Shown here: piece by piece, positions 3,073-53,788 of the stretch
Position numbering within the stretch: the first letter of the stretch is position 1
Layout of the letters: every line of letters starts with the position of its first letter
Virus record (IMG/VR): IMGVR_UViG_3300023210_000034
Span: 1-62,267 of that record
DNA: 62,267 bases
Strand: one strand, 5' to 3'
DNA from: a virus
Translations under genes and position numbers: made by a program
The notes under the pieces: model-generated
Seen by the model: the letters and a program-made list of their open reading frames with translations, nothing else
Databases searched by the model: none
Told to the model about the DNA's origin: nothing

Positions 3073-3634
3073 CGAAGACTACACTTTTAGGGTATACTAT
3101 AACCAAGTGGGCGATATACATGCATGCTCATCTGAATCCAAACCAGATGAAAGCCTGAATGATATCCCATTTTTAGAAACAACGGAGTACGAATACAGGG
3201 ACGTTATCGCAGCACAACAAAATTACGGCGTAATCTCAATCAATGATGTGCCAACACTAGTTGCGGCAACCACCGACGAATACAAAGCATTCAGAAGGAA
3301 GTTCGATAAACAAAACATAACACTGATACCTGTGATCGACAAACAACGAGAACACTACGTGGTGAAGTTCACATACATGAAGAACCGCAACAAAGTACTC
3401 GTTGAGGGCATGGACGATTTCTACAAACGTGCAGGTAATAGAGATGCAGTCGTATGGGTGTTCGTTGTCCCAAGGAACTATATCTATGAGCCACCATTAC
3501 TCACATTGAAATGGATCGGCGGCGATGTAGTCATGAATAAAGAGTTATACGAGATTCCAGCAGGAGTCAATCAGGAGATCACATTGATCAGTAACATAGA
3601 TAAACATCTAACGTCGTTCGAGGTAAGGAAATGA
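3065..3634 (+). CDS. Hypothetical protein, 189 residues
   Basis: This is a soluble protein with mixed strand-like and charged segments and no recognised domain, signal peptide or cysteine motif. It sits between the small-gene array and a glycosyltransferase-like gene and overlaps both (eight and four bases), so it is probably co-translated with them. The tight fit in an overlapping operon supports it as a real gene. Confidence 0.6.
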   Translation: MFDEDYTFRVYYNQVGDIHACSSESKPDESLNDIPFLETTEYEYRDVIAAQQNYGVISINDVPTLVAATTDEYKAFRRKFDKQNITLIPVIDKQREHYVVKFTYMKNRNKVLVEGMDDFYKRAGNRDAVVWVFVVPRNYIYEPPLLTLKWIGGDVVMNKELYEIPAGVNQEITLISNIDKHLTSFEVRK

Positions 3635-42147: not shown

Positions 42148-42437
42148 GGATACACCTGTTGCCCCTTGATTAATTTCATGACAACGAATAGGTCTGTCTT
42201 GAATTCGGTGTTCAGTTTCTTGGCGAGGTTGATCGCATGTCCGGGATTGCTGAATGAAACCTTTTTATATTTCGGGGGATTCTTCTTGAGGTTCTTCAAC
42301 AAGTTCAATGTTTTTAGATTGATAGGTTGCCCATCATAGTACACAGCCCAAATCCCATCACTCAATAGGACTTGTTCAGAGTCATATGTTTCTTTGTTTG
42401 TGTTCTCTCGGAGAACGGTCGGGGCAGGACGCGACAT
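42144..42437 (-). CDS. Hypothetical protein, 97 residues
   Basis: The start is at 42437 (MSRPAPTV), sharing a TAATG junction with the homing endonuclease gene upstream. The basic protein has VSFSNPGHAINLAKKLNTEFKTDLFVVMKL, an alpha/beta pattern. Its function is unknown. Confidence 0.55.
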   Translation of the reverse strand: MSRPAPTVLRENTNKETYDSEQVLLSDGIWAVYYDGQPINLKTLNLLKNLKKNPPKYKKVSFSNPGHAINLAKKLNTEFKTDLFVVMKLIKGQQVYP

Positions 42438-42994
42438 TATCCTTCTCCCTTTAGTTTGCGCCATCTAGCAAGTTGAGATTGGCGGCATTTTTCTTTTTGT
42501 TCCTCGGACATAGGACCACGTTTTGGCATAACCTGTTTTGCACGAGCTACCCGAAGCTTTTCCTTTTGTTCCTCTTTCATTTTCCAACCGCTGGGCATAA
42601 CCTGCTTTGCTCTAGCATCGCGGATTTTTTGTTTGGATTCTTCTGAATGTTTACGTTTTAATCCTTTCTCACTGAGTATTTTTCTACCAGCTTCGGAAAT
42701 GCCAGTATCGCCACCCATTTGTCCGTCTTCTTGTTTTAAATTAGCCCATTCGCGAGATTCGACTATGTTATTGTTGGTTGAGAAATTCAGAGCATACTCT
42801 ATCAACTCTTGTTCGTCCGTGAACTGTTTTTTCCAAACAGTGGTAACATTATTGGAATGCTTTTTAATATGCCTAACCCAATACAAACCAGAACCGCTAT
42901 ATCCATCCGGATCGTTCACAGTCTTTCCGAAATATTTCATACCCGTATCATTGTGTTCTTTGATATATAACCACGTTGGTTTAAAATTGTCCAT
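42437..42994 (-). CDS. Free-standing GIY-YIG homing endonuclease
   Basis: The start at 42994 is chosen because the domain begins there (MDNFKPTWLYIKEHN). The 185-residue protein has LYI...MKYFGKT...GSGLYWVRHIKKH, the GIY-YIG catalytic pattern. Three NUMOD3-like helical DNA-binding repeats follow (KHSEESKQKIRDAR, MKEEQKEKLRVARAK, MSEEQKEKCRQSQLARW). Such enzymes cut intronless alleles in co-infecting phages and spread by gene conversion. No intron is evident. ATAAATA lies four bases before the ATG. Confidence 0.85.
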   Translation of the reverse strand: MDNFKPTWLYIKEHNDTGMKYFGKTVNDPDGYSGSGLYWVRHIKKHSNNVTTVWKKQFTDEQELIEYALNFSTNNNIVESREWANLKQEDGQMGGDTGISEAGRKILSEKGLKRKHSEESKQKIRDARAKQVMPSGWKMKEEQKEKLRVARAKQVMPKRGPMSEEQKEKCRQSQLARWRKLKGEG

Positions 42995-48887: not shown

Positions 48888-49313
48888 TCATTCGTGCTTC
48901 TTCTTCTTCAAAGCTTTCCACATCTTCACACCCTGCAACTCATGCTGATACAAGTCATATGCGGCCTTGAGTTCAGGTGGAACCAATGTTTCTTCAGCCA
49001 GAACCTTCTTTAACACCACATCATAGGCATCTCTGGCGTCTTGTAATCTACTGTATTCTTGGTGAGTTCTATCATTAGGAGTGGTATCAGGGACAACACA
49101 CAACATCTTACACAGCTTCAATACCGTGGCCATTAGCTGAACATCTGGATTGGTTTCCGTCGAAAACGTGATATCTTGCTCTGTAATCACGAGACTGTTC
49201 GCTGTCATGTCGCAACCGTCCACCAGATAGGGGTCTTTGATCGCTGTCAATGACATCGAGCTACCCCATGGCTGCGTTGATGTTGATAGGAGATTGGTAT
49301 TAATTGTTGCCAT
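48888..49313 (-). CDS. Hypothetical protein, paralogue of the 49313 gene
   Basis: The start is at 49313 (MATINTNLLSTST), sharing TAATG with the upstream stop. The 141-residue protein ends LKAAYDLYQHELQGVKMWKALKKKK, which matches the end of the upstream gene (LKEVYDKYMETLQNLKNWEILK). The two are diverged tandem paralogues with different N-termini. Such pairs may be small structural or accessory virion proteins, but this is not shown. Confidence 0.55.
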   Translation of the reverse strand: MATINTNLLSTSTQPWGSSMSLTAIKDPYLVDGCDMTANSLVITEQDITFSTETNPDVQLMATVLKLCKMLCVVPDTTPNDRTHQEYSRLQDARDAYDVVLKKVLAEETLVPPELKAAYDLYQHELQGVKMWKALKKKKHE

Positions 49314-49762
49314 TATTCTTCCCCACGGTTCTTCTTTGCTGGGGCCTTCAGAATTTCCCAATTCTTGAGGTTCTGTAACGTCTCCATGTATTTGTCGTAC
49401 ACTTCTTTCAACATTGGATACTTTTCTTCAATGATGGTATCCCGACGTAGGATCAACAATGTTTCTTCGATATTCTTTAGACGTTCATTGATCTCTTCTA
49501 CCTCGACAAGAATAGTCTGCATGGTGCCAGTGTCGGTATTTGGCCACGTGTTGATGGTTGTCGTGCCATCATATGGCGACTTTGTGATACCCGTTCCCGG
49601 ATAAAGCGGGTTCGGGGTAGAACTATCCGTCCACTGGCCATTGAAATGGTTACGGTAGAAATCCGTAGCGGAAGTGTTGATGTTGGTGTCATCGGTAGAT
49701 ATGTTAATCGTTTTCAGTTTATCTAATAAATCTTGGTAGTCTGTGTCGTCCATTTTACTCAT
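49313..49762 (-). CDS. Hypothetical protein, paralogue of the 48888 gene
   Basis: The start is at 49762 (MSKMDDTDYQDLL), with AAAGGA six bases upstream. The 149-residue protein has a Thr/Asn/Pro-rich middle and a coiled-coil stretch (VEEINERLKNIEETLLILRRD). It ends with the LKxxYDxYxxxLQxxKxW motif shared with its neighbour. Function unknown. Confidence 0.55.
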   Translation of the reverse strand: MSKMDDTDYQDLLDKLKTINISTDDTNINTSATDFYRNHFNGQWTDSSTPNPLYPGTGITKSPYDGTTTINTWPNTDTGTMQTILVEVEEINERLKNIEETLLILRRDTIIEEKYPMLKEVYDKYMETLQNLKNWEILKAPAKKNRGEE

Positions 49763-49868
49763 CGGATTTCCTTTCGATATCACTCTCTACACAATCACCT
49801 GATTGTATCTCTATGATATGCAATACTTCTGTTTCACTGGTATTAATTAGTTGATGCCATTCATACAT
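49755..49868 (-). pseudogene. Cupin (mannose-6-phosphate isomerase-like) C-terminal remnant
   Basis: The 37-residue frame reads MYEWHQLINTSETEVLHIIE and ends in SDIERKSDE. It matches the last strands of type II mannose-6-phosphate isomerase cupins (EWHQL-NxT-xxVIEIQxG-xCxExDIERxxD). The metal-binding first half is absent. It lies just downstream of a cytidylyltransferase N-terminus and is probably the tail of the same former gene. Confidence 0.65.
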
Positions 49869-49947
49869 CATATGACATGACGGGGTTCATTTGCCGGTTG
49901 CTAATAATATCATGATACCAGTTGGTATATTTGTTGTTTATGAACAT
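49861..49947 (-). pseudogene. Homing endonuclease N-terminal remnant
   Basis: The 28-residue frame begins MFINNKYTNWYHDIISNRQ, the NKYTxWYxxII start typical of phage HNH-type homing endonucleases, and then ends. It has a perfect GGAGG before the ATG. Upstream is an inverted repeat (CCAAGGT and ACCTTGG) enclosing TATAAAATAC, which resembles the hairpin plus late-promoter leader of free-standing phage endonucleases. The catalytic domain is gone. Confidence 0.55.
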
Positions 49948-50033
49948 TTCGTGGTTCCTCCAAGGTCGTATTGTATTTTATACAACCTTGGATCAAAGCC
50001 ACCAGATACTACAACTATCTTATACGAGTCCAC
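49938..50033 (-). pseudogene. Cytidylyltransferase N-terminal remnant
   Basis: A GTG at 50033 opens a frame reading MDSYKIVVVSGGFDP. This is the first strand and nucleotide-binding turn of cytidylyltransferase-type enzymes, which normally continue with LHxGH. Here the match stops after FDP and the frame ends at 49938 with 16 unrelated residues. The break occurs exactly where the inverted repeat of the endonuclease leader begins. Confidence 0.6.
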
Positions 50034-50283
50034 CGTTCCACTCTTTCATGGTTGCGGCGTGAGCTTGTACCGCATTGGTATCGAAGTTCCAATTGCGATC
50101 ATCCCGTTTCCAATGGTTAGGGATTTTGTACTTGTTGACTGGATTCTTGAAACTTAAATAGTCCTTCCAGTTTTCCTTGTTGTGCTGATACATATCAGCT
50201 TCGTTAAATACTCTACCAAATCGAACACAAAACTTTGTGTATTCGTCCACGTCATAGAAAATTTTACTCGACTCTCGCTTCAT
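50020..50283 (-). CDS. Hypothetical protein, 87 residues
   Basis: The start is at 50283 (MKRESSKIFYDVDEY), seven bases after AAGGAG. The protein is rich in Asn, Lys and aromatic residues (NKENWKDYLSFKNPVNKYK) and probably soluble. It follows the sliding clamp gene. Its 3' end overlaps the cytidylyltransferase remnant. Function unknown. Confidence 0.6.
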   Translation of the reverse strand: MKRESSKIFYDVDEYTKFCVRFGRVFNEADMYQHNKENWKDYLSFKNPVNKYKIPNHWKRDDRNWNFDTNAVQAHAATMKEWNGGLV

Positions 50284-50293
50284 ATTGTGCTCC

Positions 50294-51031
50294 TTAAAGC
50301 GTTTGTTTTGGCAAATAGTAGGTGTACTCTGCAAACCCGCTATCGACCGTGATGCGCATTATTCCTCTTTGGGAAAATTGTATGCACATCTCATCCTCCA
50401 ATCTGAGAATGTTCAGGACTTGTTTTGTGTTCCAGTAGAATTCAGATGGGTACGATGTGCCCACCTGTTCCGCGAACTTAAACCGTCCTGCATTAGTGGC
50501 CTCGTCTCCGAAGCAAAAATATAGATCACCGTCTTCAACTTCACATCTAAACTTCTCCCCATCTGCAATATCCGCTTGCCATTTCATTTGATCGATGGCA
50601 TTGTCCTCTGGTATGATATTGATCTCGTATGACTTCGGCATCATTTTCTCGATCTCAATTCGTCCCATCTCATCCAAAATAACATGAGTTGTCTGGAGAC
50701 GATGATCGTTCTGAAATTCGCTAGTTGTCGTCTCAAAATGTAATGATGCAGGAGAGGACACTCCATTACGTTCACGTGATTCGATCTCAATAACACAGTT
50801 TTTCTTGTATGGTTCGATCTTAAGAAGATTCTGAATCTTTGGAAGGTTCGGGATACCAAATTCTCCGTGAAGAAGTGGCATTGTTCCATGTAGTACTGCC
50901 TTCAATACTACTTGGTGGTCATCGGTAACCCCTTCGATATACACGGTATCTTCCCGTGCATCGACCTTTACCCTGTCCATTAGCCCTAACATAGTTGTAT
51001 GTTTGACTAGATCATCTAGAAACGTCTTCAT
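50294..51031 (-). CDS. 45: Sliding clamp, T4 gp45-like
   Basis: The 245-residue protein has the length and two-fold strand-rich pattern of the T4 clamp. It ends with the recognisable block IMRITVDSGFAEYTYYLPKQTL. In T4 the trimeric gp45 clamp tethers the DNA polymerase and is also needed for late transcription. The gene lies directly downstream of the polymerase gene, with its own promoter at 51049-51077 and AGGAG before the start. Confidence 0.85.
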   Translation of the reverse strand: MKTFLDDLVKHTTMLGLMDRVKVDAREDTVYIEGVTDDHQVVLKAVLHGTMPLLHGEFGIPNLPKIQNLLKIEPYKKNCVIEIESRERNGVSSPASLHFETTTSEFQNDHRLQTTHVILDEMGRIEIEKMMPKSYEINIIPEDNAIDQMKWQADIADGEKFRCEVEDGDLYFCFGDEATNAGRFKFAEQVGTSYPSEFYWNTKQVLNILRLEDEMCIQFSQRGIMRITVDSGFAEYTYYLPKQTL

Positions 51032-51079: not shown

Positions 51080-53788
51080 TTATTTTGTAATTGTGAAAAA
51101 GGTATTGAATGCGGTGGTGATGTCGGTAGCGGTCCTTAATTCCCACTCCAAGATACCAAGCAGGTTGTCAACTTTCTTGCCAACAATTGCTTCTTCCATC
51201 GCTGCGTCATCGAACGGTAATTCAGTGAACCATTCCGGCAAACGCTTTTCATCAATGGGATATCCAATTCTCTCGTAGCCTAAAGAATTTGGTCTAAGCT
51301 GACATACAATGGTTTTCTGCCCATCAACAATTCCCATGCTGTGTTGATCACCATTGAATTCTTTCAAGCTATTCCAGTGCCATGCTGCGCGAACGTGACC
51401 GGGCATATTGGATTTGCCGTGGTGGATTTCATGATGAGTATATCTGGTGAGATTGTTAACTCGTTTCGGTGTACCCTTTTCCCACGGCTGCAAATTGTGG
51501 AACTCAGTCTTGAATGCAACGATCTTATCAACAATGCTCTCTCTTGATTTACCATCCAATAGATCAGTCAAAATGTCACCCAAGAACACCTGAACCTTCG
51601 CTGGGGTATCCGACCGTTTCAAGTCCAAGCCCATAGCTTTCAGTTTAGGGGTATTCAATCGTTTGCCTTCATAATCATAGATGGACAATGCGTAGCGTTT
51701 CTTCTTGATAAACAACCCACGAGAAGCCACCATCTCACGACCACCCTTGATGATTGCACCAAGTTCTTCGGGACACTTAAAGGCTTTAGCCATGAAAGCA
51801 GGGAAGGAGTCGTTGACCGAATCAGATAATGCATCGTACAGTTCAACAACATTGCTGTTTGTCCAATGAATGTCACCGGCCTCGATCTGTTTAGCCAGAA
51901 CCTTATCACCACTGAAATACACCGAGTCAGTATCGCCGTAAATGATAGATTCACCTAAGTGATCATATTCGCCCGTTAACGTTTCGTTAACATATGCAGA
52001 CATGTGTTTGGTGATACATCTTCCCGTTAGAGTAGTACTTTGTCCAAGACGTTGATCATAAAATCTACACCATTGGTTCAACAAAGCGCCGTATAAACTG
52101 TTCAAGTTAATCTTCTTCACATGTTGACGCTTATCCCAAAATGATATTTCTTCTGGATCGGTGGCGGCATACATTTTCTTCTGTAGTTCTTTACGTTCAG
52201 CGTACCATTTCCGAAGTAACCCCGGAATGATTGCTTCGTGCTCGGTATCAAACAAGGTACCGTTTGCGCTAAGACACAAAAAGTTCTCTGTATTGAATAC
52301 CATATTATATACTTCGGCAGCACTATTGGTTGATATTTCACCATCGAACCATTCAATTTGGATCATAGTGTCGGTCTCTTGGTTCATTACTGCTTGGTAT
52401 TCCAATGATCCGAACACGCCTTCCCATGCTGCAGCAAATGACATTCCCTTCTTGGGTTTGCCCTTTACCATCGTAGGAGCCATTTTATCGGCAATCATTT
52501 GATCGGTCATGGTGGGGATTAGTTGCCCCTTCAATGTTTCCGGTGCCATATTCAATGCACGAATAGCACTTGGGTACAATGAGTTGATATCGATTGAGCC
52601 AATCTGTTCATGTATTCCGCGTTTGGGTGGCGCTACGTATGCACCCGCCGCACGATTGGCTTCAGCCCTCGCTTCGGCTTCTTCCTCGGTCTCATTGAAA
52701 TTGCGTTCGGCTTTGTTCTGAACCACTAGTCCTTGAGCGTGTGCTTCATTGATGATGCCCTGCTCGGTCACGGCAACAGCACCCATCGTCGTTGGGATTA
52801 ATACGGTGTTAGCGTGAGCCAGTGCGTTCGCCAGATCGATAAACTTGTTGCGTTCATCAATACGAAATAACAGCATAGCATCCTGTAAACTGTATTCAAC
52901 AAACTTTCGGAAGTCATTGTTGTACAGTTGATCCAATGTGCCTTCGTATTCCACTTTCTTCTCGCCAAGTTCATACTCGGCAATAGCGTCCAACGAATAC
53001 GAGTGCATTTCGTGGTATGTGTACTTTTCGTACAAGTTCATGTAATCCAGATGGATACGACCAACTAGATCATAGGTAAGTTGTTCCGCACCGTATTTTT
53101 CAAATACTCGCTTCTTGGGCTGCTCGTTCCATAAACAAAACTCGTTCATGCGGGTTTCGCCAAATAACCACTTTACTCGGTGGAGCATGTATGGAATATC
53201 ATACGTGGTTGAATTCCAACCAGACAATACATCCGCATCTTGAATGATTCCAATGAAGGTAGATAACATCTCTTCTTCACTATCGAACAGAGTCACGCCT
53301 TTGAGGTCTTCGACTTCTCGTTCGGCTTCTTCCATTGTCATACCCTCGGGAGGTATCGCGTATGCTATAAGTTCATTAGACCAATCCAGATAACAACTGA
53401 TAGCTGTGATCTTATTGAACGCTTCTTCGGTACTACTATAGCCACGAACTTTATCGAAATCTGTCTCGATATCGAAGAAGCAGGTATGTAATTTTGGAAT
53501 CTCGGCGTCTAGATATTCTGTAGACAAACATTTAGCCACGGGTCTGATGTCAGATTCCCATAGGTTTTTGTGTTCGTGCTTGTACTTCTTCTTTTTGAAG
53601 TCAGCTAAATCTTTGCAGTTCACTTTGGTTACACGTGTACCGTAAGTAGTAGTACAGTCACCATTAGGATTAGTGAAGTAGAACTGGTAAATGGCCGGGT
53701 ATTCTTTGAATACTCGTTTACCATCTACCCGTTCCACGACTTTAATCACTTCGTTGAACATACCGCCTTGTATTGCATCAACGTACAT
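51080..53788 (-). CDS. 43: Family B DNA polymerase, T4 gp43-like
   Basis: The 902-residue protein has the 3'-5' exonuclease motif CFFDIETDF (Asp106, Glu108). The polymerase motif A is DINSLYPSAIR (near 403), motif B region KKINLNSLYGAL, and motif C YGDTDSVYF (near 618). The length equals that of T4 gp43 and no intein or split is present. It ends VTKVNTxFxTITK-like (FNTFFTITK), which may be the clamp-binding tail. It is the replicative polymerase. Confidence 0.97.
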   Translation of the reverse strand: MYVDAIQGGMFNEVIKVVERVDGKRVFKEYPAIYQFYFTNPNGDCTTTYGTRVTKVNCKDLADFKKKKYKHEHKNLWESDIRPVAKCLSTEYLDAEIPKLHTCFFDIETDFDKVRGYSSTEEAFNKITAISCYLDWSNELIAYAIPPEGMTMEEAEREVEDLKGVTLFDSEEEMLSTFIGIIQDADVLSGWNSTTYDIPYMLHRVKWLFGETRMNEFCLWNEQPKKRVFEKYGAEQLTYDLVGRIHLDYMNLYEKYTYHEMHSYSLDAIAEYELGEKKVEYEGTLDQLYNNDFRKFVEYSLQDAMLLFRIDERNKFIDLANALAHANTVLIPTTMGAVAVTEQGIINEAHAQGLVVQNKAERNFNETEEEAEARAEANRAAGAYVAPPKRGIHEQIGSIDINSLYPSAIRALNMAPETLKGQLIPTMTDQMIADKMAPTMVKGKPKKGMSFAAAWEGVFGSLEYQAVMNQETDTMIQIEWFDGEISTNSAAEVYNMVFNTENFLCLSANGTLFDTEHEAIIPGLLRKWYAERKELQKKMYAATDPEEISFWDKRQHVKKINLNSLYGALLNQWCRFYDQRLGQSTTLTGRCITKHMSAYVNETLTGEYDHLGESIIYGDTDSVYFSGDKVLAKQIEAGDIHWTNSNVVELYDALSDSVNDSFPAFMAKAFKCPEELGAIIKGGREMVASRGLFIKKKRYALSIYDYEGKRLNTPKLKAMGLDLKRSDTPAKVQVFLGDILTDLLDGKSRESIVDKIVAFKTEFHNLQPWEKGTPKRVNNLTRYTHHEIHHGKSNMPGHVRAAWHWNSLKEFNGDQHSMGIVDGQKTIVCQLRPNSLGYERIGYPIDEKRLPEWFTELPFDDAAMEEAIVGKKVDNLLGILEWELRTATDITTAFNTFFTITK

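Follow-up and report, generated by a model that had tools for sequence, protein, structure and literature searches.

A probable homing-endonuclease scar in a viral genome and a proposed phage cassette that joins a new gene start to its target through a +1 shift

The DNA analyzed here, hereafter the window, is a viral stretch of 62,267 bases (IMG/VR record IMGVR_UViG_3300023210_000034, positions 1 to 62,267) in which about 280 bp of short frames on the minus strand hold what is left of two genes, one encoding a cytidylyltransferase–cupin fusion and the other a homing endonuclease (homing endonuclease gene, HEG). The minus-strand gene order is DNA polymerase, sliding clamp, a small conserved gene denoted P4, the short frames, and the next gene (Table 1). 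A preliminary description of this sequence had recognized a cytidylyltransferase N terminus, an HNH-endonuclease-like N terminus, and the C terminus of a cupin in this region. All three are present at that place and on that one strand, each with a profile match to the family named, and the frames do not recur in relatives as three independent conserved genes.

We compared 2406 six-frame segments of the window with a 250-column profile of viral cytidylyltransferase–cupin proteins, whose loci had been picked using a DNA pattern for the N-terminal motif KIVVVSGGFDP only. Just two window frames match this profile below E=1, and these are the two remnants. KIVVVSGGFDP matches columns 1 to 11 in 11 of 11 residues (E=0.005 over the 2406 segments), and EWHQLINTSETEVLHIIEIQSGDCVESDIERK at 49862-49764 matches columns 217 to 249 with E=2e-7, the best match in the window; since the profile loci were chosen on the N-terminal motif, the C-terminal match is independent of that selection. 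The Pfam model MannoseP_isomer (PF01050) gives a weak match to the C-terminal remnant, under the cutoff, over its last 31 positions. The N-terminal remnant starts with a GTG codon that overlaps the 3′ end of the upstream gene. Both ends of the fusion (KIVVVSGGFDP and EWHQ...EIQ.G..C.E.DIER) are present in the right order and on the right strand, and the catalytic HxGH motif and about 205 residues of the middle are missing, which makes this a remnant rather than a member gene. A six-frame profile search found no second cytidylyltransferase–cupin fusion in the 62-kb window, a fragment of the genome, and the suggestion of the preliminary description that the phage reconstructed its sugar pathway at another place is not supported.

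Between these two pieces, MFINNKYTNWYHDIISNRQMNPVMSY at 49947-49870 matches residues 1 to 26 of a profile made from seven HEGs that were found by other patterns and not selected on the window's motif (E=2e-7; 12 to 17 of 26 residues identical). The open frame continues to 49861 through nonhomologous sequence. The homologous piece ends before the HNH motif and is thus also a remnant, in which the hallmarks of a Mob-type HNH/NUMOD3 endonuclease are not found. The GGAGG ribosome-binding site and hairpin leader ascribed to this fragment in the preliminary description are supported by folding: the helix CCAAGGTTGTAT/ATACGACCTTGG, which runs into GGAGG, has a predicted stability of −21 kcal/mol (z about −5 relative to mononucleotide shuffles), and the surrounding 111 nt fold 3.8 standard deviations better than dinucleotide shuffles.

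Table 1. Positions of the gene remnants, element parts, and neighboring genes in the window (HMM, hidden Markov model).
Feature	Position	Strand	Basis or remarks
Fusion N-terminal remnant, GTG-DSYKIVVVSGGFDP	49990..50033	-	Profile columns 1-11; cut after codon GGFD(P)
Left end and leader of homing element, AAGGTTGTATAAAAT..., with GGAGG ribosome-binding site	49948..49989	-	Aligned left ends
RNA hairpin, 13-bp stem, 3′ arm entering GGAGG ribosome-binding site	49959..49992	-	Folding
HNH/NUMOD3 HEG, first 26 codons	49870..49947	-	HMM vs intact element HEGs
Deletion junction (approximate), HEG codon ~26 to fusion codon ~217	49863..49869	-	Homology ends either side
Fusion C-terminal remnant (cupin, mannose-6-phosphate-isomerase type), EWHQ...IERKSDE and stop	49755..49862	-	Profile columns 217-249
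Small conserved gene P4, directly upstream of fusion in relatives	50020..50283	-	
Downstream gene	49313..49762	-	Weakly similar gene 3′ of fusion in L044/L033, tblastn E=0.02
Sliding-clamp-like gene, synteny marker	50294..51031	-	PHROG 12062; resembles annotated sliding clamp of Sinorhizobium phage Phosso
Family B DNA polymerase, synteny marker	51080..53788	-	

Loci in other contigs are referred to here by L numbers. Relatives of this locus were recovered with a polymerase alignment as query, whereas the clamp or the polymerase alone found none. In INPHARED, neither BLASTN with the region nor tblastn with the fragments gave a useful match, and no record carries the fusion across >80% of its length. 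The order polymerase, clamp, (other genes), P4, and fusion is found in L008, L020, L025, L047, L093, and L044, with P4 and the fusion also adjacent in L051, L072, L092, and L095; the P4 stop overlaps the fusion start by a few bases, or lies close by, in L008, L020, L025, L047, and L093. In L044/L033, polymerase, clamp, and P4 are followed in turn by a 107-aa gene, the fusion, two genes that resemble a methyltransferase and an epimerase/dehydratase, and one with weak similarity to the gene that follows the scar in the window. Quite different genes occupy the post-P4 position in other polymerase contigs (L146-L225); because its contents differ among these contigs, we regard the position (49755-50020 in the window) as a variable slot that might accept cargo in general. 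Among 43 polymerase-bearing contigs searched, those of L148 and L163 carry fusions at other places, and no split fusion was found. In two contigs, the cupin half occurs as a stand-alone gene a few genes past P4, without the cytidylyltransferase half (L209:6386-6739 and L216:14439-14786).

The same HEG family is found at the exact codon used in the window, directly after GGFDP, in L250, L291, L270, and L331, which were retrieved by a gapped pattern (GATCC ... HHIIP), and in L362 and L367, which came from the next search. The host start is still legible before the insertion in L270, L331, L362, and L367, and GGFDP alone remains in L250 and L291. The left junction reads GGNTTTGATCC/NARRTTGTATAAATAA in L250/L291, with variants in L270, L331/L362, L367, and L355; that of the window, GGCTTTGATCC/AAGGTTGTATAAAAT, aligns with the intact elements, GATCC being followed by NARRTTGTATAAATAA there and by AAGGTTGTATAAAAT in the window. 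ATAAATA lies at a constant distance from GATCC in all intact elements, the window has TATAAA at the same offset (12 from GATCC), and most intact elements have a hairpin enclosing the ribosome-binding site or start codon, an arrangement as described for I-TevI, segB, and Aeh1 mobE (PMC2988022; PMC3014915). The element endonucleases (L362 and L367) contain Pfam HNH and NUMOD3 domains and fall in PHROG 655, homing endonuclease. In isolate phages phiN3, phiA8-29, and EC-F1, a related HEG lies between genes, and no replacement start is evident in the annotation. Intact fusions in the slot after the clamp and fusions with an inserted endonuclease, which the preliminary description had proposed to look for, both exist, and its view that a homing endonuclease invaded the fusion and that both were then largely deleted gains support from the intact fusion in the same slot and the same HEG at the same codon. 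DNA patterns for INNKYTxWY matched other HNH genes, none within the fusion. In L331 (minus strand), tandem host starts, MKIVLCTGGYIKGRIIKK and MKIVLCTGGFDPKSDK, each followed by a stop, precede the insertion site, as if it had been invaded or repaired twice.

The left junction also bears on a different history, in which the full HEG was never resident: repair of an endonuclease cut within the fusion would have removed ~620 bp and inserted ~120 bp of a HEG left end as filler. One repair event would suffice, and the HEG leader and first 26 codons are indeed all that remain; the junction, however, lies at the codon used by intact elements and has the exact left end of the element, as homing followed by deletion predicts, and partly deleted HEGs are common beside the same gene (L357, L359, L360, and L366, and L363/L365 as judged by a tail). 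We consider filler capture quite unlikely. In one of these contigs, L366 (minus strand, site 3222-3251), the host gene's own start, MRKIVLVTGG, lies 5′ of the shifted fusion and continues in frame into the interior of the HEG (SNKKENIVALTAREH...), through a deletion joining the two GG motifs.

Downstream of the HEG, the relatives have a strong ribosome-binding site and a second host-gene start, MKIVL(V/A)TGGF, in which TTT is followed by one extra pyrimidine. In L250, this start reads ATG AAG ATA GTT CTA GTT ACA GGC GGC TTT T GA TCC, so that the zero frame encounters UGA after MKIVLVTGGF, whereas a ribosome that skipped one U would read ...GGF-DPLHSGH... in a frame that remains open as far as the usual stop. 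The replacement start and a +1 slip together specify the exact family protein with zero residues gained or lost. A pattern that leaves the extra base free retrieves 19 viral stretches, 14 of them distinct, and has 0 matches in 257 Gb of bacterial and archaeal contigs. Among the distinct shifted stretches, 11 have T as the extra base, 3 have C, and none has A or G; the Phe codon is always TTT. A pyrimidine fits a slip because tRNA-Phe can re-pair in the +1 frame on UUU/UUC, which A or G would not allow. The site is UUU_UGA in 16 of the 19, with the rest of the gene in the +1 frame across the UGA stop. The shift site of L357, L358, and L359 is TTT-C-GAT (UUU_CGA), without a stop codon, and is possibly a +1 site of another kind.

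A strong ribosome-binding site precedes every one of the 19 replacement starts. In 15 of these genes, the shifted frame lacks a start codon upstream back to a stop, and in most it lacks one ahead of the catalytic HxGH motif. Exceptions are L362, L364, L366, and L369, with TTG as the second codon past the shift; L357, with GTG upstream; and L358, L367, and L370, with TTG upstream. The glycine codons before the shift read GGAGG/GGCGG in 13/14 distinct shifted versus 30/78 unshifted genes (p=2e-4, ignoring relatedness), and GG(A/C)GG may be a stimulator of the shift. The elements of an RF2-like +1 site (a shifty codon before UGA, an open +1 frame, and a Shine–Dalgarno-like stimulator) are all found in the relatives and not in the window. 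Past the shift, nonsynonymous (dN) and synonymous (dS) divergence in the pairs close enough to measure reveals purifying selection (L250/L291, dN 0.124 and dS 1.19; L366/L369, dN 0.182 and dS 0.66). From these patterns, we infer ribosomal +1 frameshifting at TTT plus pyrimidine in the shifted genes. Alternatively, the extra base might be a disabling mutation and the shifted genes pseudogenes with a ten-codon relic start and no frameshifting, given that a 1-nt insertion before a stop is ordinary gene death and that UGA followed by U is a strong termination context. We regard this as unlikely, since the same base position is affected in about ten lineages, always by a pyrimidine after TTT; the downstream frame remains open and under selection though the HEG is often decaying; the ribosome-binding site is retained throughout; and the replacement start is encoded with synonymous differences between lineages.

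The shift and the endonuclease are closely associated. Of the shifted fusion genes, 14/19 have a whole or partial HEG upstream, compared with 0/102 of the unshifted ones (Fisher 1.5e-14, with related sequences treated as independent and the short contigs L370 and L364 counted as having a HEG). Among the other five, L358 retains a left scar, GGFDPRL followed by a stop, at 84 bases from the new start on its 5′ side, and an apparent HEG 3′ tail remains after P4 in L363/L365; from their sequences, these appear to be cases of HEG loss. L331 and L362 share an element that is identical in 516/516 positions, whereas the 120 bases upstream of the site agree in only 40/120, the chance level. At the other end, the last 170 to 200 bases of the HEG and the new start are identical in L362, L366, and L369, and past the shift site the identity of L362 with L366/L369 drops from 100% to 71 to 79%. 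Because identity breaks sharply there, we place the borders of the cassette at the GGFDP site and the shift site. The recoding signal thus travels with the HEG, since three divergent genes have an element that shows no difference as far as the shift site, and identical elements in divergent flanks point to HEG mobility. On the fusion tree, the shifted genes are scattered, with 10 state changes, at least 8 of which are forced by supported branches, a number close to the 12 of random labels.

Introns and inteins are frequent carriers of HEGs within conserved coding sequence, and the insertion falls in a conserved catalytic motif; removal by splicing, with the HEG in a group I intron or an intein, is nonetheless highly improbable here. 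The exon and the HEG start are just ~42 nt apart, stop codons lie between the gene halves, and the downstream part has its own ribosome-binding site and repeats the first ten codons, features for which splicing has no use. Apart from one chance match, Rfam gave nothing at E<1 in the window stretch. A group I intron was rejected because Rfam gave no match to an intron core in the window stretch and the relatives have the stops and the duplicated start.

Reading together the gene remnants, the synteny, the insertion at one and the same codon, the sharp borders, the conservation of the extra base, and the selection on the shifted gene, all as seen in the sequences, we conclude that the window locus is very probably the scar of invasion by a homing element and later deletion and that the element of the relatives probably acts as a gene-sparing cassette. 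We further consider it likely that this is a widespread phage homing cassette that joins a new gene start to the old gene body via a one-base +1 shift, with the extra base as an immunity mark and the window as a dead copy. The preliminary description is thus upheld as to invasion and deletion; it missed that the element of intact relatives does more than break its gene, supplying a replacement start and a +1 shift site. In the history that we propose, a 250-aa cytidylyltransferase–cupin gene after P4, downstream of the polymerase and clamp, would have been entered directly after its GGFDP codons by an HNH/NUMOD3 element. The left end of the element would terminate the host frame and carry ATAAATA, which resembles a late promoter, together with a hairpin that covers the region of the HEG start, and the right end would bring the strong ribosome-binding site and a replacement host 5′ end with an extra pyrimidine. 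The host remainder, now in the +1 frame, would be made by tRNA-Phe slipping from UUU to UUU/UUC, mostly at UUU_UGA. The HEG is predicted to nick GGFDP DNA, and the extra base in the regenerated target (GGNGGNTTTGATCC with an extra T) would spoil the HEG site and so confer immunity, sparing the host of the HEG itself. In the window, whose element may once have had the shift as well, a single later deletion would have joined HEG codon ~26 to fusion codon ~217 and disabled both genes; this deletion is probably young because the remnants keep conserved residues.

Several observations weigh against this proposal. The part of the window that would hold the replacement start and shift is deleted, and all intact elements come from metagenomic contigs. 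In most shifted genes the base after UGA is U, and the efficiency of shifting may accordingly be low. The three TTTC cases carry less weight, with L359 and L357 on very long branches and L359 broken again downstream; L356 has the shift with no trace of a HEG, the only such case; and the Fisher tests take no account of relatedness. The T4-type late promoter TATAAATA is not enriched across the window, and because of this the late-promoter reading draws on conservation within the element. Finally, the window is itself a metagenomic contig, and its junction might be an assembly chimera of a phage whose gene is intact, the unbroken family residues of all three remnants being as expected for a very recent or an artificial deletion. 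Similar partial deletions, however, recur in other contigs of the family, and by eye the junction has no repeat that could mislead an assembler, making a chimera very unlikely.

Among known links between a HEG and recoding, T4 mobA with the gene 60 bypass comes closest. There, as here, a Mob-type HNH endonuclease lies in a phage gene (the gene 39/60 split) with a recoding signal in the downstream gene, which has been suggested to protect its DNA from the nuclease (PMC5009743; PMC2988022); mobA itself is apparently defective (PMC3014915). The T4 case involves one phage, a 50-nt bypass, and a gene split into two proteins, whereas the present elements occur in many lineages with one extra base and a +1 site, a replacement start, and a gene kept whole. 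The mobE gene of Aeromonas phage Aeh1 is likewise an HNH HEG in a phage gene, placed in a functionally critical region of nrdA with a late promoter and a hairpin over the ribosome-binding site (PMC2988022), but nrdA acts as two separate polypeptides, and a replacement start and frameshift are not described there. In fungal mitochondrial mobile ORFs (open reading frames; Allomyces atp6 and Glomus atp6, atp9, cox2, and nad3), a HEG element brings one gene end and creates a hybrid gene (PMC3630166); that end is C-terminal and joined in phase, whereas the phage element brings an N-terminal end joined via a +1 shift. Bacterial prfB, encoding RF2, resembles the shifted genes in having a short initial ORF, with a shifty codon just ahead of its UGA, and a main ORF in the +1 frame, with UUU_U in a minority of RF2 genes and a Shine–Dalgarno-like stimulator upstream (PMC5009743). 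The phage elements differ in that no release-factor autoregulation is expected, the Shine–Dalgarno-like GG(A/C)GG lies one base before the shift codon, and the stop is mostly UGAU rather than UGAC. A search of the open-licence literature turned up no description of a HEG that combines a replacement start and a +1 frameshift.

As far as we found, T4, with its gene 60, was the one phage in which HEGs had been linked to recoding. With a sharply bordered cassette that occurs in about ten lineages and in every stage from intact through partly deleted to fully lost, the idea of recoding as evolved immunity to a homing nuclease becomes directly testable. It also carries a warning for annotation, in that shifted genes would be called truncated or late-starting, and adjoining HEG graveyards resemble meaningless short ORFs.

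Elsewhere in the window, a minus-strand frame at 42437-42994 (TWLYIKEHNDTGMKYFGKT..) encodes a GIY-YIG-like endonuclease with two NUMOD3-like repeats and has GATAAATA directly before its ATG; the frame has no Pfam match and is possibly a second, intact homing endonuclease of the same phage. In addition, most 'M(I/L)FINNKYTxWY' HNH endonucleases of viral contigs have in common a ~65-nt leader (GTGTAGTTCGCGG..CCCAACTACTCTAACGCT..GGAGC..CAGCAATG), located ~70 nt upstream of the HNH starts in L102-L143 (e.g., L126:9085-9155). No Rfam family matches this leader at the gathering threshold. Its helix is conserved, with compensatory changes in 7 of 9 pairs among 15 sequences, and by this pattern of covariation it looks like an undescribed regulatory RNA.
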